From Syntrophomonadaceae bacterium (lineage in GTDB: Bacteria; Bacillota; PH28-bin88), in assembly GCA_018333865.1 (NCBI GenBank), contig JAGXSE010000037.1:62001-126000 (forward strand): a DNA stretch of 64,000 bases, written 5' to 3'. A program made the translations under genes and the position numbers. Under the pieces are notes generated by a model. That model saw only the letters and a program-made list of their open reading frames with translations. It ran no database searches and was not told the DNA's origin. Of the stretch, positions 36,409-63,653 are shown one piece after another (within the stretch, counting starts at the first letter, position 1; each line of letters opens with the position of its first letter).

Positions 36409-37158
36409 TTATCTCTTTTTTATTTTCCGGCAAAGATTCTTTTCATCCTGAAGATCTTTTTCCTCTAACCAGATTAATGTCATCCCCTCATTTTCCGCAT
36501 AGTAATGCAATCTGGCGTAACTCTTTGTCAGCCTTCCAGGTCGCATCAATATAAGTTTATGGTCTGGCAAGTAGTAATCTACATTATTACCCCTGTATTT
36601 CCAATTAGCCATAATTAAGCTACCTGGGAAACATTTCTGCAATCTAGTTGACAGCCAATCCGGAATAGCAATGGGATTATTCTGTCTTATTTCCTCCAGC
36701 GGAGGAGGCAGGCAATCTGAGATATCTGATTGAAGAAGTGATTCAACTGCTACAGGGATATTTGAAGAAGGCTCCTGATCTTTTTGAAGGTATCCTTCTG
36801 GGCATTCCTGGCTATTTTTGCCGTCAGTGTATTTTTCATCTTTTTTTTGGTTGTAGAGCAACAAACCCTCCTTAATAATAGCATCCAAATCGCTCCAGAA
36901 ACTCCCAAAGCTATCCATTACCCGTTTATTGGGCAGCCTTTGAGCGGTAAGCTGTTGCAGTAGATTATACAAGTAGTTTTCTCTTCCCGGCAGCACTTCC
37001 ATCAATAATGAGCTGATCTCAAACACGGTATTAGCACTTTGTCTGACATGATGCACTCTGACATCGTCTTCCAGCAGACTTGCAGACATGCAGGATTGGA
37101 CCAGGTGATCTGTTAAATTGATTATCCGGCGCTCAATTTCTTTTTCTCTGTCATGCAA
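36409..37158 (-). CDS. Hypothetical protein, 249 residues
   Basis: I do not recognise this protein. The N-terminal ~100 residues are probably helical (ERRIINLTDHLVQSCMSASL; LYNLLQQLTAQRL). A charged, low-complexity linker at about 105-160 follows. The C-terminal part (IPDWLSTRLQKCFPGSLIMAN ... YYLPDHKLILMRPG, in part) looks like a small mixed fold with W, Y and P conserved-looking positions, of the kind seen in DUF-type nuclease or binding domains, but no catalytic motif is clear. It lies between the Wood-Ljungdahl terminator and a convergent gene. Confidence 0.55.
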   Translation of the reverse strand: MHDREKEIERRIINLTDHLVQSCMSASLLEDDVRVHHVRQSANTVFEISSLLMEVLPGRENYLYNLLQQLTAQRLPNKRVMDSFGSFWSDLDAIIKEGLLLYNQKKDEKYTDGKNSQECPEGYLQKDQEPSSNIPVAVESLLQSDISDCLPPPLEEIRQNNPIAIPDWLSTRLQKCFPGSLIMANWKYRGNNVDYYLPDHKLILMRPGRLTKSYARLHYYAENEGMTLIWLEEKDLQDEKNLCRKIKKR

Positions 37159-39309: not shown

Positions 39310-42300
39310 TTACAACACCTCCGCAAATAGTCCATCAACCTTGGCCTGTAACTGGTCATCCTTGTAGTGTTGCAACTGGATTGCTTTGCCTGGACACTCA
39401 GCAGCACAGGTACCACACCCATGACATTGGACAGCATTGATCTCGGCCTTAAATCTGGCGTTAATGCTTGGAACTCCGTATGCACAGACACGCACACAGG
39501 TTAAACAAGCGGCACATTTATCTTCATCTACTACTGCAATTACCCCGCCAACCATCAGGTTTTTCTGGGACAAAACTGTACAGGCTCTGGCTACTGCACC
39601 TTGGGCCTGGTATATTGACTCTGCCACAAACTTTGGCGAATGAGCTCCGCCACAAAGGAACAAGCCCGCAGAGGGAAAATCAATTGGGCCAAGTTTAGCA
39701 TGGGTCTCGACAAAAAAACCATCTTCATTTATCGGCAATTTTAAAGCGCTGGCAAATTTATTTATCCCCTCAGGTGCTACTGTTGCGGATGCTAACACAA
39801 CCTGGTCTGGCCATAAGATGATATTTTTTTCGGAGGATGCATCAAAAATTTCAACTTCTAAAATGCCTATTTCCTTACTACGAAGCTTTGGCTCCTGTTC
39901 AGGTGTATAATGAATAAACATTACACCCTTTTCTCTGGCTTCCTTGTAGTACTTCTCCATAAAACCATAGGTTCTAATGTCCTGGTAAAGAATATAGACC
40001 TCTATTTCCGGGTTCTGCCTCTTGATCTCCAAAGCATTTTTTATGCTTTGGGCACAACAGGTCCTGCTGCAGTACTTTCTTTGTTCATCCCTGGAACCGA
40101 CACACTGAATCATTACAATCTGCTTCATGCCAGCTCCATTCCATTTTCCGTCAAAGAGAAGTTGTTCCATTTTGGTGTTGGTTAAAACCCGGTCGTCTTG
40201 CCCAGCAAAATACTTTTCCGGTACGAATTCATCAATCCCAGTCGCAATTATCAACACACCATGCTCAAGCTTTTGCATTCTCCGAACATGCTCTTTGCCA
40301 GATTCTCCGATAGAAATGGTAGTAGTAAAGTGCCCCTGATGTCCGGTAAAATCATCCAGCCGGGCATTGGTAAGGACTGTGATATTCTTGTCGGACATCA
40401 CTTTGTTGATCGTGTCCGTCAAGAGGGACTGCAGATTCTCTCCGGATAATGTCCTGCGAAGGTTAGATAAATATCCGCCCAGATGGGCCTTTTTTTCCAC
40501 GATGTAGGCCTGATAACCTTGTTTTGACATGTTCAAGGCTGCGGTCATACCTGAAATACCGCCCCCAACTACCAGTGCCTTTGGCACTACCGGAACTGGA
40601 TGCAAGTGAAGTGCTTCATGGGTCTTTACTTTCGCAACCGCCATTTTCAAAAGATCTTTTGCCTTCACAGTTGCCAGCTCAGGCTCATTGCGGTGAACCC
40701 ATGAGCATTGATCCCTAATATTGGCCATCTCAAAGTAGAACTGGTTCAGCCCGGCCTCTCGCAAGGCCTCTCTGAATAGTGGCTGATGGGTGCGGATAGT
40801 GCAAGAGGCAACTACAACACGGTTCAAATTGTTTTCCAAAATGGTATCTTTAATCTTTTTCAAACTATCCTGTGAACAGGTGTAAAGGTTTTCCTCAGCG
40901 TGATATACACCAGGCAATTCCTTAGCAAAAGCCAACACTTCGGGCACATTTACCACCGAAGCGATATTTATTCCACAATGACAGATAAACACTCCCACAC
41001 GAGGTTCTTCCTTGCTTACATCCCGTTCAGGCGGGTATACTTTTCCCCGGGCAATAGAACCTCTTGCCGGGGACAATAAACCCCCAGCCAGAGCCGCAGC
41101 TGCGCTTGCATTCATCACGGTTTCCGGTATGTCTCTGGGACCCTGGAAGACCCCAGCCACAAACACTCCTTCTCTGGTGCTTCTGGCAGGATCCAAGGGG
41201 TGAGTTACAGCAAAACCGTATGCGTCTAGTTCTATACCAAAAGTATTTGCCAGTTCTCGTGCTTTTGCAGGGGGTTTAACGCCAATCGCCAGAATAACCA
41301 GCTCAAATTCCTCAGTAATCAGGTTGCCATTAGCAATGTAGCGAATAGACAGGTTCTTAGTTACCGGATCCTCTTTAATGGAAGAGATCATGCTTCGCAC
41401 ATAACGGACACCATGATTCTTCGCTGCATCAACATATTTATCAAAATTCTTTCCGTACGAGCGCATGTCAAGATAAAAAATAGCAGGCTCAATACGGCTG
41501 TCATGCTCCCTGGCAATTATTGCTTCTTTTGTAGAATACATACAACAAATAGAGGAGCAATACTCGCTTCCGTCTCTGGCACAATCCCGTGAACCAACGC
41601 ACTGAATGAAGGCAATTTTCTTTGGTGGTTTGCTGTCTGAAGGCCTTTCCACATGGCCCTGAGTAGGACCTGTTGAACTGAGCAGCCGTTCAAATTCCAT
41701 GCTGGTCATCACATTTTCGTAAATACCGTAGCCTAGCTCACCGCTGAGTTTCGCATCGTACAACTCATAGCCAGGCACCAAGACGGCTGCACCAACAGAA
41801 ATATCCAGAGTTTGATCTTGTTGGTCGTGGTGAACAGCTAATTTCTTGCAAACCATTACACATTGTAAACACTCGGAACATATTCCGCAGTTTAAACAGC
41901 GCTTTGCTTCTTCGATCGCCTGTTCCGGAGAATAGCCTAAATATACCTCTTGAAAATCCTTAATGCGCTCATTAATTGGGGCCAAAGCTTGATGTTTCCG
42001 TCGTTTTGCCAACACCAACTGATTATTGGGGGCCCCAAGATGCTCCGCAGATTTTCTCTTCTCCCTACCTTCATCCATGCTGGTATTAGTTAAATAGCGC
42101 TTAATTGATTCAGCTGCTTCATGGGCAGAAGCAACAGCCTCTACCACAGATTTGGGTCCATGGGCGATATCTCCGCAAACAAATATTCCAGGCGATCCGG
42201 TCATTAATGTTACTGGGTCAGCTTGAATAATACCGCTCCGGCTAACCTCAATTCCCTCTTCACCAGTTAAAAGGGAAAGGTCTGCAGATTGGCCGATGGC

Positions 42301-43791
42301 AATAATGATCATATCGGCAAGGAGACTTTTGTTAATGCACTCATTATACTTGGGATTAAATCTGCCCTCATGATCAAAGACAGAAATACACTGTTTAAGT
42401 TCGATCCCGGTTACCCTGCCCTCTCCCATAAAGGATACTGGTCCCCAGGAATTATGGATTAATATCCCTTCCTCCAAAGCTTCCTCAACTTCCCATTTGT
42501 GGGCTGGCATGTCATCTCTCGTTTCCAGGCAGGCCAGGTGCACTTCCTCTGCCCCTAAACGCAAAGCAGTCCTGGCAACATCGATTGCAACATTCCCGCC
42601 ACCGATAACCACTACTTTTTGTCCCACGGCAGGACTGTTGCCAAGTGCAGCGTCTCTTAAAAACTGCATTCCAGGTACGATTCCGGCTAGCTCCATGCCT
42701 GGCAACTGCAACATCCTGCTGTTTTGGAAGCCTACCGCGATCAGGATTGCTTCATAGCCCTGTTCCCTTAGTTGCTGAATAGTAAAGTCTTTTCCGATCC
42801 TGGTATTAGGTTCAAAATTGATCTGGCCCGCCTTGATGAGATATTCTGTTTCCTGTCGCACTACTTCTAATGGAAGCCTGTAGCGCGGAATTCCAGCCCG
42901 CAACAAGCCACCCGCTTCAGGCAAGGCCTCAAAAACAGTTACCTGAAAACCTTCTAAGGCCAGGTCCTGAGCAGCAGTAAGACCGCCAGGTCCGCCTCCG
43001 ATAATGGCGATTTTTCCTTCCCGGGATGGTATCCCCCCTTCGGGGGTTTTAACTTCACCGGTCCAACCGAAATCAGCTGCCGCTCGTTTTAACCAAGCAA
43101 TTGCAACAGGGTCGTCATACTGGTTACGATTACACTCAGTCTCACATGGATGATGACAGATTCTGCCACAAATGTGGGCAAAGGGCATTCTCCGGCGAAT
43201 AACCTCCAGTGCCTCAGAGAACTTGCCCTGGGAGATCATAGCTACATAGCCCTGAGCATTAGTCTCAGCCGGACAGGCACTCCGGCAGGGAGGAATGCCC
43301 CTCTTCTCAATCAGGTATTTGTTTGGGACTGCTTGTGGGAATTGCTTGAATACAGCTTTCCTATTTCCCATGCCTTCATTAAATTCATTCGGGACTTCAA
43401 CTGGGCAAGCAGTTTCGCAATCGCCACAGGCTGTGCACTCATTGATGTCAATGAATCTGGCCCTTTTTTTAATTCTTACAGCATAATTTCCTTCCACGCC
43501 TGCAAATTTTTCAACCTCTGAACATGTATGAAGTTCAATATTGGGATGACTCAAGGTGTCTGTCATTTTGGGACCCAATAAGCACATGGCACATTCATTA
43601 GTTGGAAAGGTTTTATCTAGTTGAGTCATCTTGCCACCAATAGATGGTTCATCAGTAACCATGTGCACCAGATACCCAGCGTTGGCCAAATCCAAAGCTG
43701 ACTGCATCCCGGCAATACCGCTGCCCACAACCAGTACTGATCCTACTGACTTTTGTTCACAGTTTTTATTTTCGTTATCGCACACACACAC
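39310..43791 (-). CDS. hdrA: Giant heterodisulfide reductase-like flavoprotein (HdrA-GltD-HdrA fusion)
   Basis: 1493 residues in one open frame. Residues ~15-160 are the first HdrA FAD/ferredoxin part (VLVVGSGIAGMQSA; CTACGDCETACP near 118). Residues ~165-570 form an inserted GltD/NfnB-like module with its own Cys-rich start (PPCRSACPAETN) and two dinucleotide folds (GKIAIIGGGPGG near 259; VVVIGGGNVAID). Residues ~630-915 resume HdrA (IAFIQCVGSRDC). From ~925 a second HdrA follows (VGVFICHCGIN; ALVVGGGISGM near 1069), ending in two 4Fe-4S motifs (CAACLTCVRVC, CHGCGTCAAECP). It is the flavin core joining HdrBC, MvhD and MetVF; the GltD part suggests NAD(P)H binding. Confidence 0.93.
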   Translation of the reverse strand: MCVCDNENKNCEQKSVGSVLVVGSGIAGMQSALDLANAGYLVHMVTDEPSIGGKMTQLDKTFPTNECAMCLLGPKMTDTLSHPNIELHTCSEVEKFAGVEGNYAVRIKKRARFIDINECTACGDCETACPVEVPNEFNEGMGNRKAVFKQFPQAVPNKYLIEKRGIPPCRSACPAETNAQGYVAMISQGKFSEALEVIRRRMPFAHICGRICHHPCETECNRNQYDDPVAIAWLKRAAADFGWTGEVKTPEGGIPSREGKIAIIGGGPGGLTAAQDLALEGFQVTVFEALPEAGGLLRAGIPRYRLPLEVVRQETEYLIKAGQINFEPNTRIGKDFTIQQLREQGYEAILIAVGFQNSRMLQLPGMELAGIVPGMQFLRDAALGNSPAVGQKVVVIGGGNVAIDVARTALRLGAEEVHLACLETRDDMPAHKWEVEEALEEGILIHNSWGPVSFMGEGRVTGIELKQCISVFDHEGRFNPKYNECINKSLLADMIIIAIGQSADLSLLTGEEGIEVSRSGIIQADPVTLMTGSPGIFVCGDIAHGPKSVVEAVASAHEAAESIKRYLTNTSMDEGREKRKSAEHLGAPNNQLVLAKRRKHQALAPINERIKDFQEVYLGYSPEQAIEEAKRCLNCGICSECLQCVMVCKKLAVHHDQQDQTLDISVGAAVLVPGYELYDAKLSGELGYGIYENVMTSMEFERLLSSTGPTQGHVERPSDSKPPKKIAFIQCVGSRDCARDGSEYCSSICCMYSTKEAIIAREHDSRIEPAIFYLDMRSYGKNFDKYVDAAKNHGVRYVRSMISSIKEDPVTKNLSIRYIANGNLITEEFELVILAIGVKPPAKARELANTFGIELDAYGFAVTHPLDPARSTREGVFVAGVFQGPRDIPETVMNASAAAALAGGLLSPARGSIARGKVYPPERDVSKEEPRVGVFICHCGINIASVVNVPEVLAFAKELPGVYHAEENLYTCSQDSLKKIKDTILENNLNRVVVASCTIRTHQPLFREALREAGLNQFYFEMANIRDQCSWVHRNEPELATVKAKDLLKMAVAKVKTHEALHLHPVPVVPKALVVGGGISGMTAALNMSKQGYQAYIVEKKAHLGGYLSNLRRTLSGENLQSLLTDTINKVMSDKNITVLTNARLDDFTGHQGHFTTTISIGESGKEHVRRMQKLEHGVLIIATGIDEFVPEKYFAGQDDRVLTNTKMEQLLFDGKWNGAGMKQIVMIQCVGSRDEQRKYCSRTCCAQSIKNALEIKRQNPEIEVYILYQDIRTYGFMEKYYKEAREKGVMFIHYTPEQEPKLRSKEIGILEVEIFDASSEKNIILWPDQVVLASATVAPEGINKFASALKLPINEDGFFVETHAKLGPIDFPSAGLFLCGGAHSPKFVAESIYQAQGAVARACTVLSQKNLMVGGVIAVVDEDKCAACLTCVRVCAYGVPSINARFKAEINAVQCHGCGTCAAECPGKAIQLQHYKDDQLQAKVDGLFAEVL

Positions 43792-43847: not shown

Positions 43848-44717
43848 TTACGATCCACTCAAGAGATTAAGGGCCTTAACAAGTGGCAAAGGATCAACAA
43901 TATGCTTATTAAGCCACTGTCGGCTATCTGGTAATCCCATTGCCAGACCAACCAATTCAGTAATGAAAAACACGGGCAAGCCACCAGCTTCCTGTCGCAT
44001 ATCAAGATTGGTGAAGCAAAGGGGACAAGCGACAACTAATGAATTAGCACCAGCCCGGCGAGCCGAATTTGCTATTTCTCCACAAAGCTTGACTACTAAT
44101 TCTGTCCGGGAAATGGATAGGCTTGCTCCACAACAATCTGTTTTATGAGACCAGGATACCGGCTCAGCGCCTAATACAGACATCAGGCGATCCATAATTA
44201 CTGGTTGTTCAGGATTTTCTTCAAAAGAAACAACTTTTGGCGGTCTGGTGAGCAAGCAGCCATAATATAGAGCAGGTTTCAGTCCTGTTAACGGGTTCTT
44301 AATTTTCCCCTTAATAAGTTTCATAGCTTCAGAAGCATATAGGACTTCCAAGACATGACGCACCCTGATCGTTCCGTGGTAAACTTGCCCCATGATTTCT
44401 TGCATTTTAGAATTAAGATGCTGACCGTTAGATTCATCTGACTTGATCAAATGATCCACACTTTTTAGCAAATTATAACAAGCAGCACAAGGAGCAATAA
44501 TGTCGTGGCCTTGCTTTTCGGCCAAAATAAGATTCCGGAGAGGCAGAGCCTCCGCCAGGAAATCATTTGTCGAATGGGCTGAGGTAGCGCCACAGCAGCT
44601 CCAATCGTCAATATCGGCTAACTCAATTCCAAGTATTCGGAAAACGGCCATGGTAGACAAGTTATACCCCTGTGCCATTGATTCCAGCGAGCAACCGGGA
44701 TAATAAGCATATTTCAT
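43848..44717 (-). CDS. hdrB: Heterodisulfide reductase-like subunit HdrB
   Basis: 289 residues with two intact CCG domains: YYPGCSLE ... WSCCGATSAH ... APCAACYN and YYGCLLTRP ... DCCGASLS ... ACPLCFTN. In methanogen HdrB these bind the paired noncubane 4Fe-4S clusters at the disulfide site. In the acetogen MetVF-HdrABC-MvhD arrangement the physiological acceptor is not settled. It overlaps hdrC by four bases. Confidence 0.95.
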   Translation of the reverse strand: MKYAYYPGCSLESMAQGYNLSTMAVFRILGIELADIDDWSCCGATSAHSTNDFLAEALPLRNLILAEKQGHDIIAPCAACYNLLKSVDHLIKSDESNGQHLNSKMQEIMGQVYHGTIRVRHVLEVLYASEAMKLIKGKIKNPLTGLKPALYYGCLLTRPPKVVSFEENPEQPVIMDRLMSVLGAEPVSWSHKTDCCGASLSISRTELVVKLCGEIANSARRAGANSLVVACPLCFTNLDMRQEAGGLPVFFITELVGLAMGLPDSRQWLNKHIVDPLPLVKALNLLSGS

Positions 44718-45289
44718 CGGCCTTTCTCCTTTGCGATATGAAAGATTTTTTGTATTTCCTGTCTCCTCTTAATTCCGTGGGGTATTAACTTCAAGATTCC
44801 TTTGGTGAACATCTTTAGTCCCAATGAAGAATCTTGCATATAGGTCCTGGTCTTAAGCTTATAACGCACCATCATCCCCAGTTCATATACCCGACCGAAA
44901 CTTTGCACCGAATCAAGAAAAGCGCCGTGAAATGCCGGGATATTTTTATCTGCTGGGGTGCTTGTTTCTAAAGACATTTTTTTAAGAATATCATTGATCC
45001 TTGAGATATCAATGTCATTAGGGCAGCGTGAATGACAGGTTTTACAGGACACGCAAACCCACATGGTATTAGACATGATTAGTTCATCTTTCAATCCTAA
45101 CTGAATATAACGGACAACCTGACTTGGGTGAACATCCATCGCAAATTCCATTGGACATCCGCCTGAGCATTTAGTGCACTGAAAACAACGGCTGATAGGT
45201 ACTGCGCACTTTTCCTCCATTTCTGCCAAAAAAGAATAAGAAGGCATCACCTTGATGGGTCTTGCCTCACAGGCCCCAGGGTATTCCAA
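44714..45289 (-). CDS. hdrC: Heterodisulfide reductase-like subunit HdrC
   Basis: About 191 residues with two ferredoxin motifs, CFQCTKCSGGCPM and CVSCKTCHSRCPN, followed by a helical tail, the normal HdrC layout passing electrons between HdrA and HdrB. The start is ambiguous: a TTG at 45289 has AGAGGTGA at workable spacing, whereas a GTG at 45298 touches that site. The ~90-base gap before it, from the end of acsE1, is the largest inside the cluster and includes a TATAAA that could serve as an internal promoter. Confidence 0.92.
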   Translation of the reverse strand: MEYPGACEARPIKVMPSYSFLAEMEEKCAVPISRCFQCTKCSGGCPMEFAMDVHPSQVVRYIQLGLKDELIMSNTMWVCVSCKTCHSRCPNDIDISRINDILKKMSLETSTPADKNIPAFHGAFLDSVQSFGRVYELGMMVRYKLKTRTYMQDSSLGLKMFTKGILKLIPHGIKRRQEIQKIFHIAKEKGR

Positions 45290-45380
45290 AAGCCTCACCT
45301 CTTTTCCTGAAAATAAAATAAAATAACATTAGCAATTAAAACACAATTATTTATAAGCCTTGCTGTGATAAAATTTTAAC

Positions 45381-47170
<1,790 letters not shown>

Positions 47171-53579: not shown

Positions 53580-56276
53580 CTACCAGGTAGCCGTAAGTGA
53601 TGTGCCGAATTTTTGAGCAGCCTCTCCATGAATCCTCAGTTTCCATGAGCGTGCCTGCAACGCAGCCATAATTTCTTCTGCCGCCCGCAGCGGATCTGTT
53701 TCCCAGATAAAATGGCCGCCGAAGACGTCCTGCGCAATGTCCAGCAAAAGACCATTGACCAGGCCGCTACCGAGAACCGGAGGAATAACACCGACATGGA
53801 CAGGCAGGCCCATGGCTACATTCCAGGAACCTATAGACAGGGATTTCTCCGTCATTGCTTCCGGCGCACTGGCAGCAAATGGGATTTTGGGAGTATCGAC
53901 ACCCAGATCATTAGCAATGGCTGTAGCCAGGTCGGCAGCTCTGGTGTTGTCTACACAGGAGCCCATATGAAACACAAGCGGCAGGCCGCCCTGAAGTTTT
54001 TGGGCATTAGCCTCCTCCAAGCGCCGCAGGAAGGCTTTCAGCCCCTCTCCGGCATAAATCTCAACTGCCTCAGGGGTGAGCAGTCCAAGCTTTGCAAAGG
54101 CTCCGGCGGCACAGCCGGTAGCCAATAAAAAGACATCTTTCTTAGCTAACGATTTGGCTATAGTAATATAACTGTTGTCCTGAGTAGTCTTTAAATTGTT
54201 GCATCCAGCAAACAGCACCACACCGCGCAGTTCTCCGCACTTCAACGCTTCAGTCAGCACACTAACCGGAGCAGCGGGGTTCAGCGCTGAAAACAGGTCG
54301 TAAAGGGTTTCCAGGCTGAATCCGGCGACCACCTTGGATTTGACTGCCGGAATAAAGCAAGGCGTACCTGCTCGTTCCCGGTAAGCTGCAATCGCCAGGC
54401 GGATTACATCCTTGGCTTTAAGCAGTGCATTTTCTGTGGTAAAGTCTAAATAATGGGAGCCTGGGATACGGGCATTTTTAGCTGTCGTGACTATCCGTGT
54501 CTTGAAGCACTCGGCAACTGCCTGAACGCTGGGCATAATACACTGTACATCCACCACCATCACATCTAAGGCCCCAGTCATAATCGGCAGCTCCTGGGAC
54601 ATAAAATTGGTTGCCAGCGGTACACCCTGGCGCATCAAGACCTCGTTACCGGTACAGCAGACACCCATTAACTGGATACCATTGGCTCCGGCCTCTTCCG
54701 CCTCTTTTTCCAGCTCCCGCGCTGCCCGGACAATCATTTCCGACAAGAGCGGGTTATGACCATGAACAGCAATGTTAACCTTTGTCTGATCTATCACACC
54801 CAGGTTAGCCTCAGTATAGACCGGAACGGGAACACCAAAGAGCACATCAGAAAGGTCAGTCCCTACATGCATTCCGGCAAAATCAGCCAGTGCCGCCTCC
54901 AGTGTTTTAAAAACCAGGCTGACCGGATCTGCATCCATCCCCAAGTGGGTCTGGCTCATGGCGGTGGCGATAGTGTCAAAAATGCTGGTCGGCAAAATAT
55001 CTGTCTCCCGGAACTTTTTGACGCGGTCAGGTGTAACTACCTTCTCCACCCACTGCAGGTAGCCATCGCTCAGACGGCCGTATTCCGCCAGGCCGCAATC
55101 CACCACATCGCGCAAAATATCTATATTATCGCGCCCTAGTGTCGAAATGCCCAGCCTTTCTGCTATGGCCAATAATTTTTGCGGACTGGAGATTTTGTAA
55201 TCTCCAGATCTCCCCTCCGCCACTGACTTCAAAGTGAGCAGGATATGCTTGGCATGATCCGAATGGGCTGCCGTACCACCAAGAACGGAACGAAGCAAAT
55301 TACGAGCTACAATGGTGTAAGCGGTAGCGCCGCAGACGCCTTTAGGGGCGGCGGATGTGATCTGGCACGGCCCCTGGATACAAATACGGCAACAAATGCC
55401 AGTATCACCGTAGCGGCACTGGGGCTGTTGCGCCAAATAGCGATCATAGGCGGTAGCGACCGGTAATTTCCTAGCCAACATCCCTTGCACTGCAGGGTCG
55501 GCAGACCTTTGCCGGTCCTCTGCCAGGCTGGTGGCCGTCGCAACTGCTTCCCGGTGCAGCTCGCCCGCGAAGTGCAGGATCGTGTCTTTAAGTTCCCGGT
55601 CCATCTTCATGCTGCCGGTACAGGGATAATTGTGCCATTTGTTGCCAACTATTTCCGCCAGTTTCTCGTCATCCGGCACCCCAGCCAGGTTGCGGGCAAC
55701 AAAATAGGCCGCTCCGCATGGAGAACTTTGCACAACTCTCGCTTCCTGGATTACCCCGTCCAGCTTTTTGATGCTGAATTGGGGATAACCGATCCGAAAA
55801 TAGCGGATAAACTTGTTAACCTCCGGATGCACTGCATTTTCCCGCAACGCGCAAAATGGTTTGGGGAAAACAATCTCCAAACTAGTTCCACGGGCCTTTT
55901 GCTCTACCTGACGGCGTGCGCCACCTTGTAACCAAAGCGGATCCTCTAGCGGTACAACCAGTGCTTTAACACCAGCCTGGACACAAAGCTCCGGCAAGGA
56001 AAGCAAAATGTCTTGATGCAGGTTGATAGCCAGTACAGTATGCACGCCGTTTAAAGCAGAAACAGGCGGCAGGTACTGGATCGGGTCTTCTTCCAGCATC
56101 ACCGGCAGATTATTGGGCTGTTCCCAGACCAAGACAATGTCCCGGGAATAATTCAAGTCGTACTGCCGACGACATTCGGTGCAGTCGGTACAACCGGTGC
56201 AAAATTTTTCCACATCCTGCAGGTGGCTATGAATTTTTTGGCCGAAGGACCCGCTATATAAAATAGCTATTTTCAC
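53580..56276 (-). CDS. acsA: CODH catalytic subunit (AcsA/CooS) fused to an N-terminal DUF166-like domain
   Basis: 898 residues. Residues ~1-235 are a DUF166-like domain: start MKIAILYSGSFG, Cys at 26, 29, 32 and 35 (CTGCTDCTEC), SSPCGAAY near 185 and YPCTGSM near 217, leading into DTILHFAGELHREAV. From ~240 a complete bacterial CODH follows: D/B cluster CRYGDTGICCRICIQGPC near 285-303, and C-cluster ligands in HGHNPLL, GVCCTGN, DVQCIMPS, FAGCNNLK, ATGCAAGA and MGSCVDN. All six are present, so CO/CO2 chemistry is expected. GTG at 56276 behind AAGGAGG is chosen. No stop separates the two domains. Confidence 0.92.
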   Translation of the reverse strand: MKIAILYSGSFGQKIHSHLQDVEKFCTGCTDCTECRRQYDLNYSRDIVLVWEQPNNLPVMLEEDPIQYLPPVSALNGVHTVLAINLHQDILLSLPELCVQAGVKALVVPLEDPLWLQGGARRQVEQKARGTSLEIVFPKPFCALRENAVHPEVNKFIRYFRIGYPQFSIKKLDGVIQEARVVQSSPCGAAYFVARNLAGVPDDEKLAEIVGNKWHNYPCTGSMKMDRELKDTILHFAGELHREAVATATSLAEDRQRSADPAVQGMLARKLPVATAYDRYLAQQPQCRYGDTGICCRICIQGPCQITSAAPKGVCGATAYTIVARNLLRSVLGGTAAHSDHAKHILLTLKSVAEGRSGDYKISSPQKLLAIAERLGISTLGRDNIDILRDVVDCGLAEYGRLSDGYLQWVEKVVTPDRVKKFRETDILPTSIFDTIATAMSQTHLGMDADPVSLVFKTLEAALADFAGMHVGTDLSDVLFGVPVPVYTEANLGVIDQTKVNIAVHGHNPLLSEMIVRAARELEKEAEEAGANGIQLMGVCCTGNEVLMRQGVPLATNFMSQELPIMTGALDVMVVDVQCIMPSVQAVAECFKTRIVTTAKNARIPGSHYLDFTTENALLKAKDVIRLAIAAYRERAGTPCFIPAVKSKVVAGFSLETLYDLFSALNPAAPVSVLTEALKCGELRGVVLFAGCNNLKTTQDNSYITIAKSLAKKDVFLLATGCAAGAFAKLGLLTPEAVEIYAGEGLKAFLRRLEEANAQKLQGGLPLVFHMGSCVDNTRAADLATAIANDLGVDTPKIPFAASAPEAMTEKSLSIGSWNVAMGLPVHVGVIPPVLGSGLVNGLLLDIAQDVFGGHFIWETDPLRAAEEIMAALQARSWKLRIHGEAAQKFGTSLTATW

Positions 56277-56344
56277 TTTGGCTGCCTCCTTGTTACTGTC
56301 CACGCCGTCAGATCTAAGCAATCATTCAACTGGTTTCACAAACC

Positions 56345-57709
56345 TTAAGCTACGCTATTGCGACGTTTTTTCAGCTCATGCAAATATTTGGGCAGGTCAG
56401 TCGCCTCTCTTGGGCCAACAAGAATTTCCCAGCCAGGCAACTCATCTTCCAGGTCACCCTTAAGGCGAGCCACATACCCAGGGAGGATCAGCTGCTTATG
56501 AGTCACCTTATCGGCTAAGGATTGTTTCTTGACCATTTCAGCAATTGTCTCCGGAACGAACTTGCCGGTAGACCAGGCTGCCAGCACACATAAGCCTCCC
56601 GTATCCTGGCAAAGCAAATATACAGGCAGCTTGCTGTTTTCCGTCTCACCAGCCACAGCGTAATATGTCAGGGCAAAGTTGGTCGTGACCAGCACAGCAG
56701 CACTTTCATCTGCCTCGTTAAAGGAATAGACCTTGCTTTCAACAGTTGGCGCCACTCTCGGATCAGTATAAATATCCTGGCGTACTGTCAATAATGTCTC
56801 GAAACCCGCTGGCGAAACATCATCCAGGACAATAATACCAGCATACCTTGCTATACCTGCGGAAGCTAACAGCAGTTGGGTGTCTATATCGGAGGTAACT
56901 GCTGGTCCATAAAAGAGGGTCGGATAACCTAAGGTTCTAAACTTATGCAATAAAGAAGCACGACGGATGATTGTTTGATCCCGAACCAGGTCCGGCAGGG
57001 TGCGGGAACCAGGTTCCAGCACCAGGTTTTCCAGACCCATTTCCTTCAGTTTTCCTGACAGGTCAGCCAGGGTTTCCAGGCTTTTAGCCCTGGCGCAGAC
57101 AGCGGCGCTCTTATCGAGATTAGGCACAACTTGCGTATAGTTCTCAGCGGTAACACAGACCAGCGGGTTCCTGTTCTTACTTGCTTCGTAGGCGGCAAGC
57201 AAACAGCCGGGCTCATCAGCCATCAGGATCAGGCCGGCGTCAGTTTCCGCCAAGGTTCTTTCCACCAGTTTATGGTACCGGCTGCTGTCTCCACTGGTGC
57301 AGTGTAAAGCCACCAGATCAAAGCGGGATATTTTGTCAAGCCTATCATACTGCCAGGCCAGTTTGGCCAGCTTGTTGCCCCAGATCTCTTCGCTTTCTCC
57401 GTCAGCGATCTGCAAGGCAAGTCCGGGCGGTTGTAAAAAGGTTTTTTGGTGGCGGTACATTACCTCTTCTGCACCGATGACCACTTGCCTGGGTCCCTGG
57501 CCAATTTTAACCTGCCTGATCGGTGGTTGGAGCATGTCTTCTATTTGTGCCTTTGAATCTAACGAAAGATAGGAACACTTTTCCAGCGCAATACCAGCAT
57601 TAGCCAATTTCATGGCAAAAGCAAAACAGGTGGCTAAACCGCATTCCTTGCAGTTTTTCTTGCCGTTTTCCGGTAATAACTTCTGAATATCCGAAGCTTT
57701 TACAGGCAT
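56345..57709 (-). CDS. acsC2: Corrinoid/iron-sulfur protein large subunit (copy 2)
   Basis: 454 residues, a diverged paralogue of the acsC1 product. The 4Fe-4S motif reads CKECGLATCFAFAMKLA with a fourth Cys in EKCSYL; the barrel and the C-terminal LVGPREATDLPKY are kept. It lies between cdhC and the fused CODH gene and is therefore likely to serve the archaeal-type complex (role of CdhE). ATG follows GAAAGGAG. Whether it descends from AcsC duplication or from a CdhE lineage needs a tree. Confidence 0.9.
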   Translation of the reverse strand: MPVKASDIQKLLPENGKKNCKECGLATCFAFAMKLANAGIALEKCSYLSLDSKAQIEDMLQPPIRQVKIGQGPRQVVIGAEEVMYRHQKTFLQPPGLALQIADGESEEIWGNKLAKLAWQYDRLDKISRFDLVALHCTSGDSSRYHKLVERTLAETDAGLILMADEPGCLLAAYEASKNRNPLVCVTAENYTQVVPNLDKSAAVCARAKSLETLADLSGKLKEMGLENLVLEPGSRTLPDLVRDQTIIRRASLLHKFRTLGYPTLFYGPAVTSDIDTQLLLASAGIARYAGIIVLDDVSPAGFETLLTVRQDIYTDPRVAPTVESKVYSFNEADESAAVLVTTNFALTYYAVAGETENSKLPVYLLCQDTGGLCVLAAWSTGKFVPETIAEMVKKQSLADKVTHKQLILPGYVARLKGDLEDELPGWEILVGPREATDLPKYLHELKKRRNSVA

Positions 57710-57735
57710 ATAAACACTCCTTTCAAGCAGGGTTA

Positions 57736-58923
57736 TTAAAGCCGCCCAGCGTTCTGCATGAATTCGGTCAGTTCATCTACGTTTTGCACATCTTTTTCAG
57801 TAGCGATTTTATCGGCCAGCTCTGCCGGAATACTATCTTTTGCTGATTCTTTTAACGTAGAGGTCATCCAGGCAACCCGGTTAAAGCCGCCATCAGCAAT
57901 CAAAAATTTGGGTGACCTGAGATACTGAATGCCGATTCCGACATAGCCTTCATTTTGCTTGCCACCACTAGCCAGACCAGCCAGGGTAGAAAATGGATCG
58001 CCGATTACAGTTGACCCGACAAAGTCCCTGGAGACAATGCCAAAGCCATCAACTTCGGGGATGTAAAATACAATTGCCTCGAAACAGCCACAGGAAGTAT
58101 GCGGATAGGAAAGGGCACTGTGGAGGCTAAATTGGGTTGTTTCTCCCATAGAACGCTCAGTTACCACCTTGTTAACATTGTCATAAGAGATATTCTCAGG
58201 GTCGACGAGGTTGCCCTTGGGCACAGCAAACTGAGCACCCTCGGGGTCAACCTTGGTGGCAGCGCGACCGTCGAGCCAGTTAATGGCGCCACAGAGTGAA
58301 ATACGCTCTGGCGTGATAATGCAGACATGGGTGGGAGCAAAGCTTTGACAGAGGACACAACCGTAGAATTCCTCCACGTCCTCCTCCCGCATGCCCTGAA
58401 TTCTGTCATCCCGCTCTTTATATACCTGCATGGCTCCTGCCAGCAACTCCTGAACCTTAACCTGGTCGGTAACAAATTCCACCGACATTTTTTCAATCAC
58501 CGGCAGTTCTGCAGTAAAGAGATCGATGAGAATCCGCCCTACATGTTCCAGTGAGTTTAAGCCTTTTTTATAGGCATTTTTATGGATGCGGATCCAGATA
58601 TCGTAGCGCTGTGCCATATGAAAGACGCCTTCCAGGTAATTGATATATTGATGGATACGCCGCTCCAACACCGCTTCCAGATCTTTTTCCAGCGCTTCCC
58701 CAGCCACGTCTATCTTAATAAAAATAGGGCTGGAGGTGCCTTCCGGCAAATCTTTAATATCGGGCCCGGTAATGATAATTTGATCGTGCTCTACCTCATC
58801 GAGGCCCTTGACAGTGACCAGTTCACCCTTTTGGGCCACCTCCGGGCCACCAAACTCTACCTGGAATTCATTTTTGCGAATTCTTTCCCCTTCATACTGC
58901 GGACCAACGTCTACCACGTACAT
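57736..58923 (-). CDS. cdhC: Acetyl-CoA synthase beta subunit of archaeal type (CdhC)
   Basis: 395 residues, starting directly at VDVGPQYEGERIRKNEFQVEFGG and thus lacking the N-terminal CODH-binding domain of bacterial AcsB. This is the normal archaeal CdhC build, not a truncation, because a good GGGAGG site and ATG sit exactly at that point. A-cluster cysteines are in CVLCQSFAPTHVC (near 185), SLCGAINW and TSCGCFEA. It presumably works with CdhA/CdhB and the second corrinoid protein. Confidence 0.94.
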   Translation of the reverse strand: MYVVDVGPQYEGERIRKNEFQVEFGGPEVAQKGELVTVKGLDEVEHDQIIITGPDIKDLPEGTSSPIFIKIDVAGEALEKDLEAVLERRIHQYINYLEGVFHMAQRYDIWIRIHKNAYKKGLNSLEHVGRILIDLFTAELPVIEKMSVEFVTDQVKVQELLAGAMQVYKERDDRIQGMREEDVEEFYGCVLCQSFAPTHVCIITPERISLCGAINWLDGRAATKVDPEGAQFAVPKGNLVDPENISYDNVNKVVTERSMGETTQFSLHSALSYPHTSCGCFEAIVFYIPEVDGFGIVSRDFVGSTVIGDPFSTLAGLASGGKQNEGYVGIGIQYLRSPKFLIADGGFNRVAWMTSTLKESAKDSIPAELADKIATEKDVQNVDELTEFMQNAGRL

Positions 58924-58960
58924 GTTACCTTACCTCCCTTAAGTATATTTTTTAAATTAT

Positions 58961-59521
58961 TTACTCAGTGGTGCCAAGTGCACTTACCAACTCTGACAAA
59001 TACTCCTGCCACTTTTCCCTCTTCACAAGCACCGGTACGGCAAAGTCAGCATTGGGGTGGCTGCGGCGGCAAATTGCGAAGGTTTTCAAGTGGGGGGCAA
59101 AGTGTTTCAGGGTGGCCAGCCCGCGTTCAGCCAGATCGCACCTCACACCGGTAAACAGCACCAAGTCATGGTAGCCCTTACCGCGAACACCAGCCCATTC
59201 CTTGTCCTTTAAGAAATGGATGATCTCAATGATGTCATAGGTTGAATCGGGACGAACTCCCAGTTCCAGCATCTTTCTCTTGACATGAGCCGTGGCACAT
59301 ATGGGAATATTGCGTGACTTGGCAATTTCAAGCGCATAATCAATCAGCAATCTGTCACCTACAGGCGAATCGATAACTTCCGGGCCAAAAATATACAATG
59401 GATTTTTAGCCTTTTCAATTATTTTTGCCGCCTCACCCGGCAAAGCAACTACCTTGGCTGCTTTGGTGCCAGTTAAAACATTGACTTTGTAGTAAGGCAA
59501 GGTCATTAACTCTGTGGTCAT
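58961..59521 (-). CDS. cdhB: CODH epsilon subunit of archaeal type (CdhB)
   Basis: 186 residues with a DHS-like Rossmann fold as in methanogen CdhB: AKNPLYIFGPEVIDS near residue 40, a central strand-rich core and the end RREKW-type VPVLVKREKWQEYL. CdhB binds the CdhA dimer and has no counterpart in the bacterial AcsA/AcsB enzyme. ATG follows GGGAGGGATC. Its place between cdhA and cdhC matches archaeal operons. Confidence 0.92.
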   Translation of the reverse strand: MTTELMTLPYYKVNVLTGTKAAKVVALPGEAAKIIEKAKNPLYIFGPEVIDSPVGDRLLIDYALEIAKSRNIPICATAHVKRKMLELGVRPDSTYDIIEIIHFLKDKEWAGVRGKGYHDLVLFTGVRCDLAERGLATLKHFAPHLKTFAICRRSHPNADFAVPVLVKREKWQEYLSELVSALGTTE

Positions 59522-59540
59522 ACAAGATCCCTCCCGATTC

Positions 59541-61847
59541 TTATTTTATAGTCGCCTCAATGGGAACTTTTGTCTCATAAGTGCCGATAATTGTCGGCAA
59601 GGAAAGGACAGGCTTAGGCTGCCAACCTACTTCCTTCAAGTATGCCAGCACTTCCCGCTTGTAAACAATGGGGATCTCTTTTTCTGTGCGGACGAAGTTC
59701 TGCAAGTCATCGGGAAGGGCACCAATAACCTGCTTGTATGCGGAAATGTAACTATTCAGCTTGATGGCCCGGCCTGGTGGCGTGTCATTGCGGCGGAAGC
59801 ACTGCTTGATGATGGTGACCAGCGCTCTCTCCTTTGTTTCCGTAACCAGCATCATGTGTTCCGGTGTAGGCTCGCCGGTGTCAACCCTTTGCTTGGTCCG
59901 GCCGTCAATTACCGTCCAGTCACCCATTTCTTTTTTACTCATAAACAGGCGGCGGTACTTGGAGCCGTGCGGACCAAGAACAACCGGAATGCCCCAGCGC
60001 ACTGCCCCGGTTCCAATGGCCAGAGCCTTTTGGGAATAAGGACCCCAAACCACACCACAGGCTCCAACGCGGTTTAAAATATAGTCGGACATCAATTCAA
60101 AGTTGGCCCGATTCGGCAAGGTGGCAAATATATTAGCGATTTTGATCGCAGCCCCCACGACATGGGCATTAGCAACACAGGAACCGACGTTGACGATACA
60201 GCCGGCATCAAATTCGGGTGTGTATTTTTCATAAATAGTCTTGCCGTCTGCATCTTTTCTCATGGCTGCAGCCATAGCCGCACAGCCGGAAAGGGTGACG
60301 ATATACTTGCGCCGAGCCAGCTCTTCTGCTAACCAGGCTACATCATCAATATCGCCAGGGAAATTGGAACAGCCGGCAAAAAGTACAACCCCGGGGATAG
60401 TGCCTAGAACAATAGGCGATCCGACCTTCCTGATTTCCACGTCATGAATCGGGCCACGGCCAGAGCGCATTTTATAGGTGTCCCAGGTAGCAGCCGCTTG
60501 CATTATACGCAGGATTGGGATTTGGTGTACACATGCCTCTTCGCACTTGGCGCAACCATGGCAACGCAGGAACACTTCGCCTAACTTAGCAAAATTACCT
60601 TGTCTGGCCTGATTTACACCTGAACTTACAGGCAAAAGGTTAGGACAGGCTCTATTGCATGCTTCACAAGTTCCTGGGCATTTTCCAGCCAGAACTGATG
60701 CCTCCGTTTGGTTTAAAAGTTGCTTTTTGACGCTGCGATTGGGAGCCAGGGCAAGGGCGGCCCGCACGATTACTTCAGCCGCTTTTTCCGGATCTAAGAT
60801 CAAATACTGTTTTTGTTTTTCCAGCACTTCGCGTAGAATATCATCAGCTTCTCTGGCTGAGGCGTTTTCCAGTCCATAGCATATCTTATCTGAACAAGCA
60901 ATCATTGCCGCTCCGGCTTCTCTTGCCATCTGCGGAATATCTGTAACTACACACTGCTCATCAGTAACCACCACATCAGCAAGGCCTGCTTTTAAGAAAA
61001 AGCGCTGCCGCGAGAGCGGGCCAATCACTTTGGCACCACTGGCATACCGGGTCACGTCATGGGCTGTGCAACATAGTCCCCCCACCTCCACTTGATCATA
61101 GAGGTTGTGTTTTTGCAGATAATCGATAATCGCATTAGCCGTAACAGCATTGTGCCCCACAACTACAATGGTGGGCTTCGTTCTGTCTATGGCGCCCCAA
61201 CCCAGATCAACTAACGGTGTGTCTGCTACAGAAGTAGGCAAACCGTACCCAACAATTTGGGCAATATCGGCCGCTTCCAGCGCTACATGATCCAGCATAC
61301 CGGCATGAAAGGCCTTGGATTCAAAATCCCGGTAATTACCTTCTTGCCCCATATGGGTAGAAGATACCAGATGAATCATTTCCCGCTCAACGTATTCAAT
61401 AGCCTTGCGCAGGTCGCCAAGGTTTTCTGGTTTAAGGCCCATCACTGTCCTGATAATCGGGGCCTCTACGTTAACCTGGCTGCCGAGGTCAATTTTACGG
61501 TCTTCACCATATTTTTCAATCAGGTGATCGATCATGTGCCGGCCATGGGCGCCATGTGCCGCCGTGCCCATCAAAGAACAAATCAGGATCCACCTGGCCT
61601 GCTGCGAGGCAATGTCTATGCCGCAGGCGCCTTTTTTGTCTCCTGTCAAGTCGCATTTGCCATAGGTGCAAAGACAGCATAAGTCGCAAAACGGAGCATA
61701 AAAAGGCTCATACGTGTCAAGGAGGCGAAAGTCCCAATTGCGCAGGTCTGTCAGTGTGGGCATCGGTGTCGGACCAATCGGCTCCCAGGTGTCGTCTGCC
61801 TTGATTATTGTTTTAATTTCTGCTTCTCTCATATTGCTTTTTAACAT
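59541..61847 (-). CDS. cdhA: CODH catalytic alpha subunit of archaeal type (CdhA)
   Basis: 768 residues, far longer than bacterial CooS (~640). N-terminal cluster cysteines are at 54, 57, 58, 60 and 65 (CDLCCLCTYGKC). Two extra ferredoxin motifs typical of archaeal CdhA are present near 389 (CPGTCEACNRACP) and 429 (CHGCAKCEEACVH). C-cluster candidates are VVGHNAV, GLCCTAHD, TDEQCVVT, FAGCSNFP, LSGCAAMA and VGSCVANAH. It oxidises CO or reduces CO2 within the alpha2-epsilon2 unit with CdhB. ATG follows GAGGGAGG. Confidence 0.95.
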   Translation of the reverse strand: MLKSNMREAEIKTIIKADDTWEPIGPTPMPTLTDLRNWDFRLLDTYEPFYAPFCDLCCLCTYGKCDLTGDKKGACGIDIASQQARWILICSLMGTAAHGAHGRHMIDHLIEKYGEDRKIDLGSQVNVEAPIIRTVMGLKPENLGDLRKAIEYVEREMIHLVSSTHMGQEGNYRDFESKAFHAGMLDHVALEAADIAQIVGYGLPTSVADTPLVDLGWGAIDRTKPTIVVVGHNAVTANAIIDYLQKHNLYDQVEVGGLCCTAHDVTRYASGAKVIGPLSRQRFFLKAGLADVVVTDEQCVVTDIPQMAREAGAAMIACSDKICYGLENASAREADDILREVLEKQKQYLILDPEKAAEVIVRAALALAPNRSVKKQLLNQTEASVLAGKCPGTCEACNRACPNLLPVSSGVNQARQGNFAKLGEVFLRCHGCAKCEEACVHQIPILRIMQAAATWDTYKMRSGRGPIHDVEIRKVGSPIVLGTIPGVVLFAGCSNFPGDIDDVAWLAEELARRKYIVTLSGCAAMAAAMRKDADGKTIYEKYTPEFDAGCIVNVGSCVANAHVVGAAIKIANIFATLPNRANFELMSDYILNRVGACGVVWGPYSQKALAIGTGAVRWGIPVVLGPHGSKYRRLFMSKKEMGDWTVIDGRTKQRVDTGEPTPEHMMLVTETKERALVTIIKQCFRRNDTPPGRAIKLNSYISAYKQVIGALPDDLQNFVRTEKEIPIVYKREVLAYLKEVGWQPKPVLSLPTIIGTYETKVPIEATIK

Positions 61848-61872
61848 TTCTTATTTCCTCCCTCTCCAGAAC

Positions 61873-62754
61873 TTAGTTGACCAAGGCTCTAACGCGCTGC
61901 AGACTTTCCGGATGACGTAAGGTTACGATGTCTGCACCGGCAATTAACAGGGTAAATGCAGTAAGTGCTTCCCAAAGAATACCTTTATCTGCATCCTGGG
62001 TTGCTTCCTTGGTTTTCCATGCCTCCTTCCCCACCCTGGCAATCAATGGCGACTGCAAGGTTTTATCGTCATGTACGATCGCCGAGAGGCGAATGCGTTC
62101 CATGGTGGAATAAGCATAATCCAGTCCGTAGCCGGCAGCACAAGTCAGGGGATCAATAACTATCCTGTCTAGCGGGAATATCTTGCTGAGCCTGATGTTT
62201 AAATCTTTGGCCAAATTGATATCCATGGGAATCTGAGCGATAATTGCGTGCCCGTGTTCGAGGGCCACAGGTGCTATTTCCTGATAATTCTCCTTCAGTA
62301 CCGGACCAATTAATAAGTTCATCCCGCTGCAGGTTGCGGCCACCACCGGCAGAACGGCAGCATCTTTTTCTTTCTCGCCCAAGCCAAAAACTACCAGCGG
62401 TACGTCAACTGCTTCGGCAACTTTTTTTACGCCGGCAGCAATCTCTATTGCCGGCAGATCCTTTTCCATGCTGTTCAGATTCAGAAAAATCATCTCTGCC
62501 CCAAAGACTTCCACACATTTTTTAGCCCAGGCAACCGGAGACGATTTAACATCCGCGTAAAGATCCTGCAGACACAGTGTCCAGTCAGCCGGTTCGCTGT
62601 CAGTTATTTCCAGAGCAAGCTTTAGTTTAGCCGGTCTTCCTTCAAAAAAATGAAAAGGCAAGGTATTTTGTCCGCCAACTCCTATTTTTTTGACTTCTGG
62701 CCCCAGTACCAGTTCCTTGATTTCGCCAGGGTATTTTTCTATAAACTTTTCCAT
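61873..62754 (-). CDS. acsD2: Corrinoid/iron-sulfur protein small subunit (copy 2, diverged)
   Basis: 293 residues, a shorter and divergent AcsD/CdhD barrel. Shared marks are [45 protein letters not shown] and YGLDYAYSTMERIRL; the GGTRSH loop and the end NIDQLMVSN of copy 1 are missing. It lies between acsE2 and cdhA and probably pairs with the acsC2 product. Confidence 0.9.
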   Translation of the reverse strand: MEKFIEKYPGEIKELVLGPEVKKIGVGGQNTLPFHFFEGRPAKLKLALEITDSEPADWTLCLQDLYADVKSSPVAWAKKCVEVFGAEMIFLNLNSMEKDLPAIEIAAGVKKVAEAVDVPLVVFGLGEKEKDAAVLPVVAATCSGMNLLIGPVLKENYQEIAPVALEHGHAIIAQIPMDINLAKDLNIRLSKIFPLDRIVIDPLTCAAGYGLDYAYSTMERIRLSAIVHDDKTLQSPLIARVGKEAWKTKEATQDADKGILWEALTAFTLLIAGADIVTLRHPESLQRVRALVN

Positions 62755-62774
62755 ATTTTCAGCCTCCCCGCGTT

Positions 62775-63653
62775 TTAAACTTCCAGCCAGGACGGAGAAT
62801 ACAGCTCTCGCCCCATGATGACCCTGGCTGTCTTATAGTAGTCCCTTTCGACTGGAGACATGACGGTCATGTCCAAGTCTTCGCCATCTATTACCTGGTG
62901 GATAATAGATACGATTTCCTGTTTTTTGCCGGAATTCAGTTCGATCAGATCCTGATCAAAACTATCCACAATAGCAGAATACAAACCAGCTTGCTCAAAA
63001 ACAACCATCACTACTTGGTTTAGGATATGACGCAAGTGTCGCGGAGTGCCGTTTGATACGTTGGAAAGTCCAATCACAGACTTGACGCCAGGAGCGATAT
63101 CCGGCAGCATTTTGATGAGTTCCACTGACTCTAAAATGTCCTGCTGGCCAACTCCTACAGGCATCAGAATTGGGTCAACCCAGATGTCTTCCGTCGGAAT
63201 GCCGAGACTGTGGGCATAATCGATTGTTTCCATGATGGACTCAGCCCGGGAAGCAGCATCAGAGGGGATGCCGGCATCGTTGAGCACCGAAATTACCACA
63301 TTGGCATTATATTTTTTGGCCAGCGGTAGCATCCGTTCTTTACTGTCCTTAGTACCATTTGCAGAATTAATCAGCGGTCTTTGCCGGCAAATAGCCAGGC
63401 CAGCTTCCATAGCAACAGGATTAGTAGTATCAAGGGAAAACGGAAGGTCGACAACTTCCTGAATAGCATTAACAAGCCAGCTCATGGTTTCGGTCGGATT
63501 TTTGCGCGCAGGACCGATGTTCAAATCAATATATTGCACACCGCACTCAGCCTGCTTGCTGGCCAACTCCTGCAGAGGACGCGCATCTCTGCCAATAAGA
63601 GCTTCCGAAACGACCTTGGAGAGAATCTGAATGTTTTCTCCAATTAGAATCAT
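62775..63653 (-). CDS. acsE2: Methyltetrahydrofolate:corrinoid protein methyltransferase (copy 2)
   Basis: 292 residues, about 30 more than copy 1 because of an extended C-terminus (VSIIHQVIDGEDLDMTVMSP region). Motifs: MILIGENIQIL start, YIDLNIGPARKN, PFSLDTTNPVAMEAG, INSANGTKDSKERM, WVDPILMPVGVGQQD. Starts with a normal ATG behind AGGGGG. It is the first gene of the 26-kb run and should load methyl groups on the second corrinoid protein. Relationship to MtvA/MtgA-type methyltransferases is possible for such diverged copies. Confidence 0.88.
   Translation of the reverse strand: MILIGENIQILSKVVSEALIGRDARPLQELASKQAECGVQYIDLNIGPARKNPTETMSWLVNAIQEVVDLPFSLDTTNPVAMEAGLAICRQRPLINSANGTKDSKERMLPLAKKYNANVVISVLNDAGIPSDAASRAESIMETIDYAHSLGIPTEDIWVDPILMPVGVGQQDILESVELIKMLPDIAPGVKSVIGLSNVSNGTPRHLRHILNQVVMVVFEQAGLYSAIVDSFDQDLIELNSGKKQEIVSIIHQVIDGEDLDMTVMSPVERDYYKTARVIMGRELYSPSWLEV

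Follow-up and report, generated by a model that had tools for sequence, protein, structure and literature searches.

The stretch of Syntrophomonadaceae bacterium DNA analysed here (64,000 nucleotides of contig JAGXSE010000037.1, positions 62,001 to 126,000; hereafter the window) carries an hdrA gene at 39310..43791 of the minus strand, encoding a 1,493-residue protein in which one HdrA (HdrA-1) is split by a GltD-like flavin and pyridine-nucleotide module and followed by a second HdrA (HdrA-2). This protein is the HdrA of the already described Moorella form of Hdr-type (type IV) methylenetetrahydrofolate (methylene-THF) reductase (MTHFR). We consider it quite probable (about 0.75) that it serves in a Moorella-type HdrABC-MvhD-MetVF reductase, in which the GltD module would be fed with NADH and the HdrA-1 flavin would act as the branch point. 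The original prediction, made from the letters of the window, gave the reading frame and its length correctly without naming the strand; the link that it drew to MetVF, MvhD and HdrBC is borne out by the protein families of the operon, and the order hdrC-hdrB-hdrA-mvhD-metV-metF, that of Hdr-type MTHFR clusters, is also seen at the loci of relatives. Its claim of novelty did not survive: the same protein has been described for M. thermoacetica (Kremp 2022, PMC9430772), and many Bacillota have full-length homologues. In the acetyl-CoA pathway of Moorella-like acetogens, few points are as poorly understood as the electron donor and the third partner of type IV MTHFR.

Domain architecture of the window HdrA

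The protein opens with the flavin adenine dinucleotide (FAD)-binding start of HdrA-1 (residues 15–163, 43303..43749; minus strand, as are all window features below), recognized by sequence and structure-database searches and containing a GSGIAG motif, a conserved C67xxC70 and the first cluster motif of the HdrA-inserted ferredoxin (C119, C122, C125 and C129). The GltD/NfnB/StnC-like module follows at residues 164–637 (41881..43302), as judged by families and fold. It comprises two Rossmann folds, an FAD motif (GGGPGG, 265–270), an NAD(P) motif (GGGNVA, 397–402) and eight cysteines in two Fer4_20-type clusters (169, 173, 208, 212, 216, 220, 632 and 635). Residues 638–920 (41032..41880) begin with the second cluster motif of the inserted ferredoxin (C638, C641, C644 and C648), the insertion site lying between the two motifs of that domain, and hold the rest of the thioredoxin reductase (TrxR)-like HdrA-1, including a cluster at C731/745/749/750 and the bifurcating-flavin signature residues E701 (41689..41691; E696 in Moorella) and K755 (41527..41529; K750 in Moorella). 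HdrA-2 consists of an N-terminal domain (922–1070, 40582..41028; C937, C939, C972 and C997), a TrxR-like FAD domain (1071–1417, 39541..40581; GGGISG, C1230/1241/1245/1246, E1209 and K1251) and a C-terminal 2x[4Fe-4S] ferredoxin domain (1418–1493, 39313..39540), with no cysteine between 1029 and 1230.

HdrA-1 has neither the HdrA N-terminal domain nor the C-terminal ferredoxin, both of which HdrA-2 keeps, and HdrA-2 has no inserted ferredoxin. The two parts are complementary partial copies; two complete tandem HdrAs were rejected, each copy being without parts present in the other. A GltD module in the N-terminal HdrA combined with a C-terminal HdrA devoid of inserted ferredoxin is the arrangement of the Moorella form. 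The original outline of a split and resumed HdrA, followed by another that ends in two 4Fe-4S motifs, is right in domain order, and its three FAD-type motifs and many clusters are present in the sequence, but the insert is longer than the 400 or so residues proposed (about 474) and neither HdrA is complete.

A search against the sequences of solved structures recovered pieces of methanogen HdrA in order at residues 19–162, 636–892, 922–1101 and 1355–1490, and a GltD/NfnB/StnC piece at about 161–647; NCBIfam and Pfam concur, the family search placing a Fer4_20/Pyr_redox_2 GltD module at about 164–637. An AlphaFold2 model of residues 1–921, built from 24 aligned sequences, gave a mean predicted local distance difference test score of 80.2 and a predicted template modelling score of 0.74. 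Residues 163–646 of the model match NfnABC (9bov) with Z 47.8 and a root-mean-square deviation of 2.0 over 471 residues, and residues 164–648 match StnC (8oh5) with Z 46.5 (deviations of 2.0–2.2 for the NfnABC and StnC matches), while residues 15–910 without the insert match residues 150–576 of methanogen HdrA (8rvu) with Z 43.8 and a deviation of 2.4 over 417. Because both modules match by fold, the insertion of GltD within HdrA-1 is confirmed, and the proposed checks by domain search and structure prediction came out in favour of the domain order and the inserted fold. Relative to NfnB the module is permuted, the stretch that precedes the clusters in NfnB having moved to the C-terminal end of the module (NERIKDFQEVYLGYSPEQAIEEAKRCLNC). 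StnC shows the same permutation, and the large subunit of StnC/NfnABC (8oh5, 9bov, 9n5u) likewise carries its EAxRCLxC piece at the C-terminal end of GltD.

Residue conservation and comparison with known systems

Conservation was assessed in an alignment of 51 long homologues, which reduce to 43 distinct sequences at 97%, with locus L038 placed by hand in group B of the residue table; L-numbers denote sampled loci and G-numbers sampled genomes. The cysteine sets assigned to nine [4Fe-4S] clusters are near-invariant, the exceptions being C208 (46/51) and one row gapped at its C-terminus. E701 and K755 occur in every row (51/51; 43/43 distinct), and K235 (43087..43089), which aligns with StnC K170, a ligand of cluster C7, and with a Glu of NfnB, is kept in 51/51. 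Window HdrA bears the E/K pair in both flavin domains, as the Moorella form does; in the second domain, E1209 is found in 46/51 rows, K1251 in 40/51 and both together in 33 of the 43 distinct rows. Since E701/K755 are invariant and E1209/K1251 are not, the HdrA-1 flavin domain, adjacent to the GltD insert, is the constant candidate for a branch point; in Sporomusa ovata, likewise, the pair is confined to the N-terminal flavin domain.

The comparison with Moorella and Sporomusa called for by the original prediction places the window protein with the former. Kremp 2022 (PMC9430772) describes the same architecture in M. thermoacetica HdrA, with sites for three FAD and one NAD(P)H, E696/K750 and E1204/K1246, and eight predicted clusters as against the nine cysteine sets counted here. 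That protein (162.8 kDa) shares operon, domain order, both E/K pairs and the CLE residues discussed below with window HdrA, which is 67% identical to locus L024, listed under M. thermoacetica HdrA; sequence divergence is the only difference seen. The metVF-linked MTHFR HdrA of Sporomusa ovata (942 residues, 101 kDa) resembles the window protein in having two TrxR-like domains and a second HdrA without inserted ferredoxin. It differs in being shorter and in lacking both the GltD insert and the additional ferredoxin domain; its NADH activity is weak (0.5 U/mg, versus 190 U/mg for Moorella HdrA). The window protein, with its GltD insert and greater length, is not an HdrA of this short type (no GltD, about 942 residues).

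Other systems share individual features. Du 2025 (PMC12054007) describes archaeal HdrAs into which GltD has been inserted more than once: in type III the insertion is at the ferredoxin, and modelling in that paper seats GltD at the ferredoxin site, while type II has two TrxR domains. Window HdrA, with a GltD inside an HdrA, unites type II and type III traits, but its dinucleotide motif is GGGNVA rather than the GXGXXG of type III. StnC has a Lys matching K235, but its chain includes a NuoG-like domain, its partner is StnAB and its nucleotide is NADPH. Methanogen HdrA (5odc, 8rvu) shares fold and sequence with both HdrA parts, unlike which it has about 650 residues, one TrxR-like domain, no GltD and no duplication.

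The nucleotide site and the proposed electron path

The nucleotide-binding residues of the GltD module are present and intact, and their signature points to an NAD-type site: at the 2'-site, the window protein has C421-L422-E423 (42523..42531), as does M. thermoacetica, where the NADPH enzymes StnC and NfnB have YRR. Recombinant Moorella HdrA is reportedly NAD-specific. In the Moorella complex, NADH is oxidized at HdrA (Oppinger 2022, PMC8760232). The built-in NAD(P)H site that had been put forward as a missing entry point is thus supported by its residues and by the Moorella work; it is not new, as in Moorella the gap had already been filled. Among the 27 distinct rows of the MetVF-linked clade (see below), 18 have LE and 9 RR, and among 16 other distinct long rows 4 have LE and 12 RR. 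At locus L074 (genome G150), a single contig encodes two long HdrAs, of which the first type carries YRR and the other CLE.

In the mechanism that we propose, the inserted GltD module would oxidize NADH at its FAD, and electrons would leave singly through its two clusters and then through the pair belonging to the split ferredoxin, reaching the HdrA-1 FAD. This flavin, with E701/K755, would be the branch point, either bifurcating or confurcating, from which HdrA-2, HdrBC and/or MvhD would relay electrons to MetV and on to the MetF flavin, where methylene-THF would be reduced. The GltD flavin would be an input flavin and not the branch point, because K235 is the StnC-type Lys and not the Glu of NfnB. 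A third redox partner would be required; it is probably not ferredoxin, since GltD occupies the place at which ferredoxin docks on methanogen HdrA and HdrA-2 has no inserted ferredoxin.

Several observations weigh against this proposal. By the rule of Du 2025 (PMC12054007), in which GXGXXG is read as a preference for NAD and GXGXXA for NADP, the GGGNVA of the window would be NADP-type, as would all 51 rows (GGG and a final A in 51/51). M. thermoacetica HdrA also has GGGNVA, yet oxidizes NADH. Conservation of the E/K pair in HdrA-2 is incomplete, recombinant Moorella HdrA contained two rather than three FAD (Buckel and Thauer 2018, PMC5861303), and in the Moorella complex NADH oxidation was not coupled to the reduction of methylene-THF (Oppinger 2022, PMC8760232). 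No co-reduction of NAD(P)+ or ferredoxin was seen in S. ovata with H2 as donor, and no NADH-dependent methylene-THF reduction by a type IV complex was found in the papers examined.

The same complex might instead confurcate, NADH acting jointly with menaquinol, or with a different donor of higher potential, to reduce methylene-THF. We hold this possibility tentatively, though with some weight: menaquinol has been proposed as co-reductant in M. thermoacetica (Rosenbaum et al. 2026, PMC13040438), T. phaeum shows quinone-linked MTHFR activity, and the genome of the window gave a MenA match over the cut-off. That genome also has an RnfC match over the cut-off and no [NiFe]-hydrogenase match, a combination that is compatible with menaquinol but not decisive. 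No membrane-anchor family was found among the operon proteins scanned, however, and the presence of MenA is uninformative about MTHFR; it is a weak guide, because the search that detected it found no MenA in G015, the genome with the HdrA closest to M. thermoacetica HdrA.

That there is no branch point at all, HdrA being a long wire in a plain NADH:methylene-THF reductase, seems improbable to us: E701/K755 are retained throughout and the Moorella complex fails to reduce methylene-THF with NADH alone, even though the uncoupled reaction is exergonic and the Acetobacterium enzyme is non-bifurcating (Buckel and Thauer 2018, PMC5861303). Bifurcation at the GltD FAD itself, as in NfnB, would draw on the shared fold (Z of about 37 with NfnL) and on R305, conserved at the position of NfnB R201 and StnC R239. 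The Glu that ligates the FAD-proximal cluster of bifurcating NfnB is replaced by K235 in all long homologues, as in StnC, where the GltD flavin is reportedly non-bifurcating, and no NfnA partner occurs among the operon proteins scanned; we regard this mechanism as very unlikely. The idea that separate genes were joined by a sequencing or assembly error, for which we found no supporting point, can be dismissed with near certainty, as the identical fused frame recurs in 43 distinct sequences, the others being 44–75% identical to window HdrA.

Probable exchange of the GltD module

Phylogenies of the HdrA core and of the GltD module disagree. In the core tree, made by a quick method from the shared core of 63 rows, the 27 distinct MetVF-linked long HdrAs and one short metV-adjacent HdrA form a clade of 28 (support 100). 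The GltD-bearing rows together are not a clade on this tree (8 changes), and a single origin of GltD-bearing HdrA was rejected by the approximately unbiased (AU) test (p 1.9e-57), with caution because of long branches. In the GltD tree the 27 MetVF-linked rows are split, and holding them together was rejected (AU p 2.4e-6): seven rows (L019–L022, L027, L028 and L047), the first six mostly from Thermincola or near it, group with ten GltDs whose HdrAs lie outside the MetVF clade. A careful GltD tree, from which 10 of 59 rows were omitted for long branches or unsure places (L004, L005, L007, L016, L038, L062, L063, L064, L066 and L075), supported the seventeen at 97/88 and the seven at 100/100. 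On the core tree, the opposite grouping was rejected (AU p 8e-7).

A model-free identity test compared the six Thermincola-type rows (L047 left out) with four Desulfosporosinus-type rows, nine Moorella-type rows and four outside HdrAs. In the flanks (residues 15–163 and 638–920), the Thermincola-type rows are 68–73% identical to the Desulfosporosinus- and Moorella-type rows; inside the insert they are only 41–43% identical, while Desulfosporosinus- and Moorella-type rows remain 58% identical to each other. With the outside HdrAs, identity is 48–53% outside the insert and 53% inside. A drop confined to the insert fits a cassette exchange between about residues 165 and 635, and the GltD of the Thermincola-type branch appears to come from another lineage, with an NADP-type signature. 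We consider the exchange likely, not proven, since the tests were made after the pattern had been seen and long branches are present; that it changed the electron donor is less certain. Convergence at the nucleotide site is an unlikely cause of the conflict, as the fall in identity extends over the entire module. There are also apparent point switches: the GltDs of L032 and L016 (the latter on a long branch) fall among the CLE type, although both have YRR.

More broadly, the chances seem to us evenly balanced that the inter-cluster site of HdrA is a socket for interchangeable input cassettes, with GltD gained or lost repeatedly and, among MetVF-linked HdrAs, residues 165–635 or so of the Thermincola type replaced by the cassette of another HdrA lineage in a change from NADH-fed (CLE) to NADPH-fed (YRR) enzymes or the reverse. 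In passages retrieved from the open-access literature we found neither GltD exchange nor an NADP-type version among MetVF-linked HdrAs. Nature offers two sets of enzymes that share an HdrA body but differ at the nucleotide site, on which donor specificity and the electron route between GltD and the branch-point flavin could be probed by swapping cassettes or three residues.

Distribution of long and short forms

A contig scan of named genomes gave 32 loci, including Moorella, Thermanaeromonas, Anaerospora, Desulfosporosinus and Thermincola; a class-level search covered three genomes. At the phylum level, 146 of 398 genomes had a MetV match, and long HdrAs were found in at least 52 places (broken and contig-edge copies included), at least 37 of them, in at least 35 of the 146 MetV genomes, with a MetV match within 2 kb. 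Adjacency was counted by hand from two lists, and the counts are lower bounds because they cover the matches listed and the two best HdrA candidates scored per genome. Among the matches listed, 15 of the 52 had no MetV within 2 kb; two of these HdrAs reach a contig end, and one is broken and lies on a different contig from metV. All but two of the metV-adjacent long HdrAs listed share 53% or more identity with the window protein across the matched part, and a group at 45–49% identity is mostly away from metV.

The fused length, whose universality in metVF clusters the original prediction had named as a bar to novelty, is widespread but not universal: no fewer than seven of the loci sampled (L081 and L084–L089) have a short GltD-less HdrA (frames of about 990–1,040 residues) beside metV or metF, L081 holding both forms. 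Within the 45–49% group, the gene order hdrC-hdrB-hdrA(long)-hdrA(short) was seen at L071, L072 and L074. In the locus tables, MvhD carries no label and some metV and metF frames are masked by the overlap filter. The metVF clusters of L081 and L082, with a long GltD-bearing HdrA, and of L085, with a short one, seem to contain an Flx-like NAD-binding protein, a Fer4_22 protein and an HdrC-CCG fusion, and at L078 a long HdrA of the 45–49% group stands beside FlpD, Flx-like NAD-binding and Fer4_22 proteins. These assignments rest on Pfam for L085 and L078 and on gene order and size for L081 and L082; Flx is the name that we presume for the NAD-binding neighbours. A long GltD-bearing HdrA (44% identical) also occurs at 9001–13422 of L038, from a Candidatus Hydrothermota metagenome-assembled genome, with no metV or metF in view.

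Operon and neighbouring genes

The hdrA frame runs for 1,493 codons uninterrupted by a stop from a GTG at 43791, just 5' of which lies a plausible ribosome-binding site (AAGGAAAGG). Directly after its stop, mvhD (FlpD, PF02662; 38877..39308) starts with an ATG at 39308, preceded by GGAGG, and is followed by metV (PF12225; 38209..38880) and metF (PF02219; 37289..38212). Upstream of hdrA lie hdrB, with two CCG domains (43848..44717), hdrC, a 4Fe-4S dicluster protein (44714..45298), and the methyltransferase gene acsE (45381..46139), all assigned by family matches. Beyond these come acsD, an AcsF-like ATPase, a 638-residue protein, acsC and acsB; the 638-residue protein, which has no family call, we take from its place and size to be AcsV. 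A 249-residue protein 3' of metF (36409–37158, minus strand) has no Pfam or NCBIfam match, and a homologue (24–37% identical) likewise lies 3' of metF in Moorella, Thermanaeromonas and other loci.

Elsewhere in the window, a 913-residue carbon monoxide dehydrogenase (CODH; AcsA/CooS) with an N-terminal DUF166 fusion is encoded at 53580–56321 (minus strand). Among the matches listed for 299 phylum genomes, only G209, from another family, spans the whole fusion (83% over residues 10–913), the others beginning at about residue 226 or later. Transfer of this gene is suggested because G002, the nearest relative by HdrA, is only 55% identical there. Beside the bacterial AcsB set, a second, archaeal-looking CODH/acetyl-CoA synthase set occupies 56345–63653 (minus strand), with CdhE-like, CdhC-like (without its N-terminal domain), CdhB/epsilon, CdhA-like, CdhD and AcsE-like proteins.

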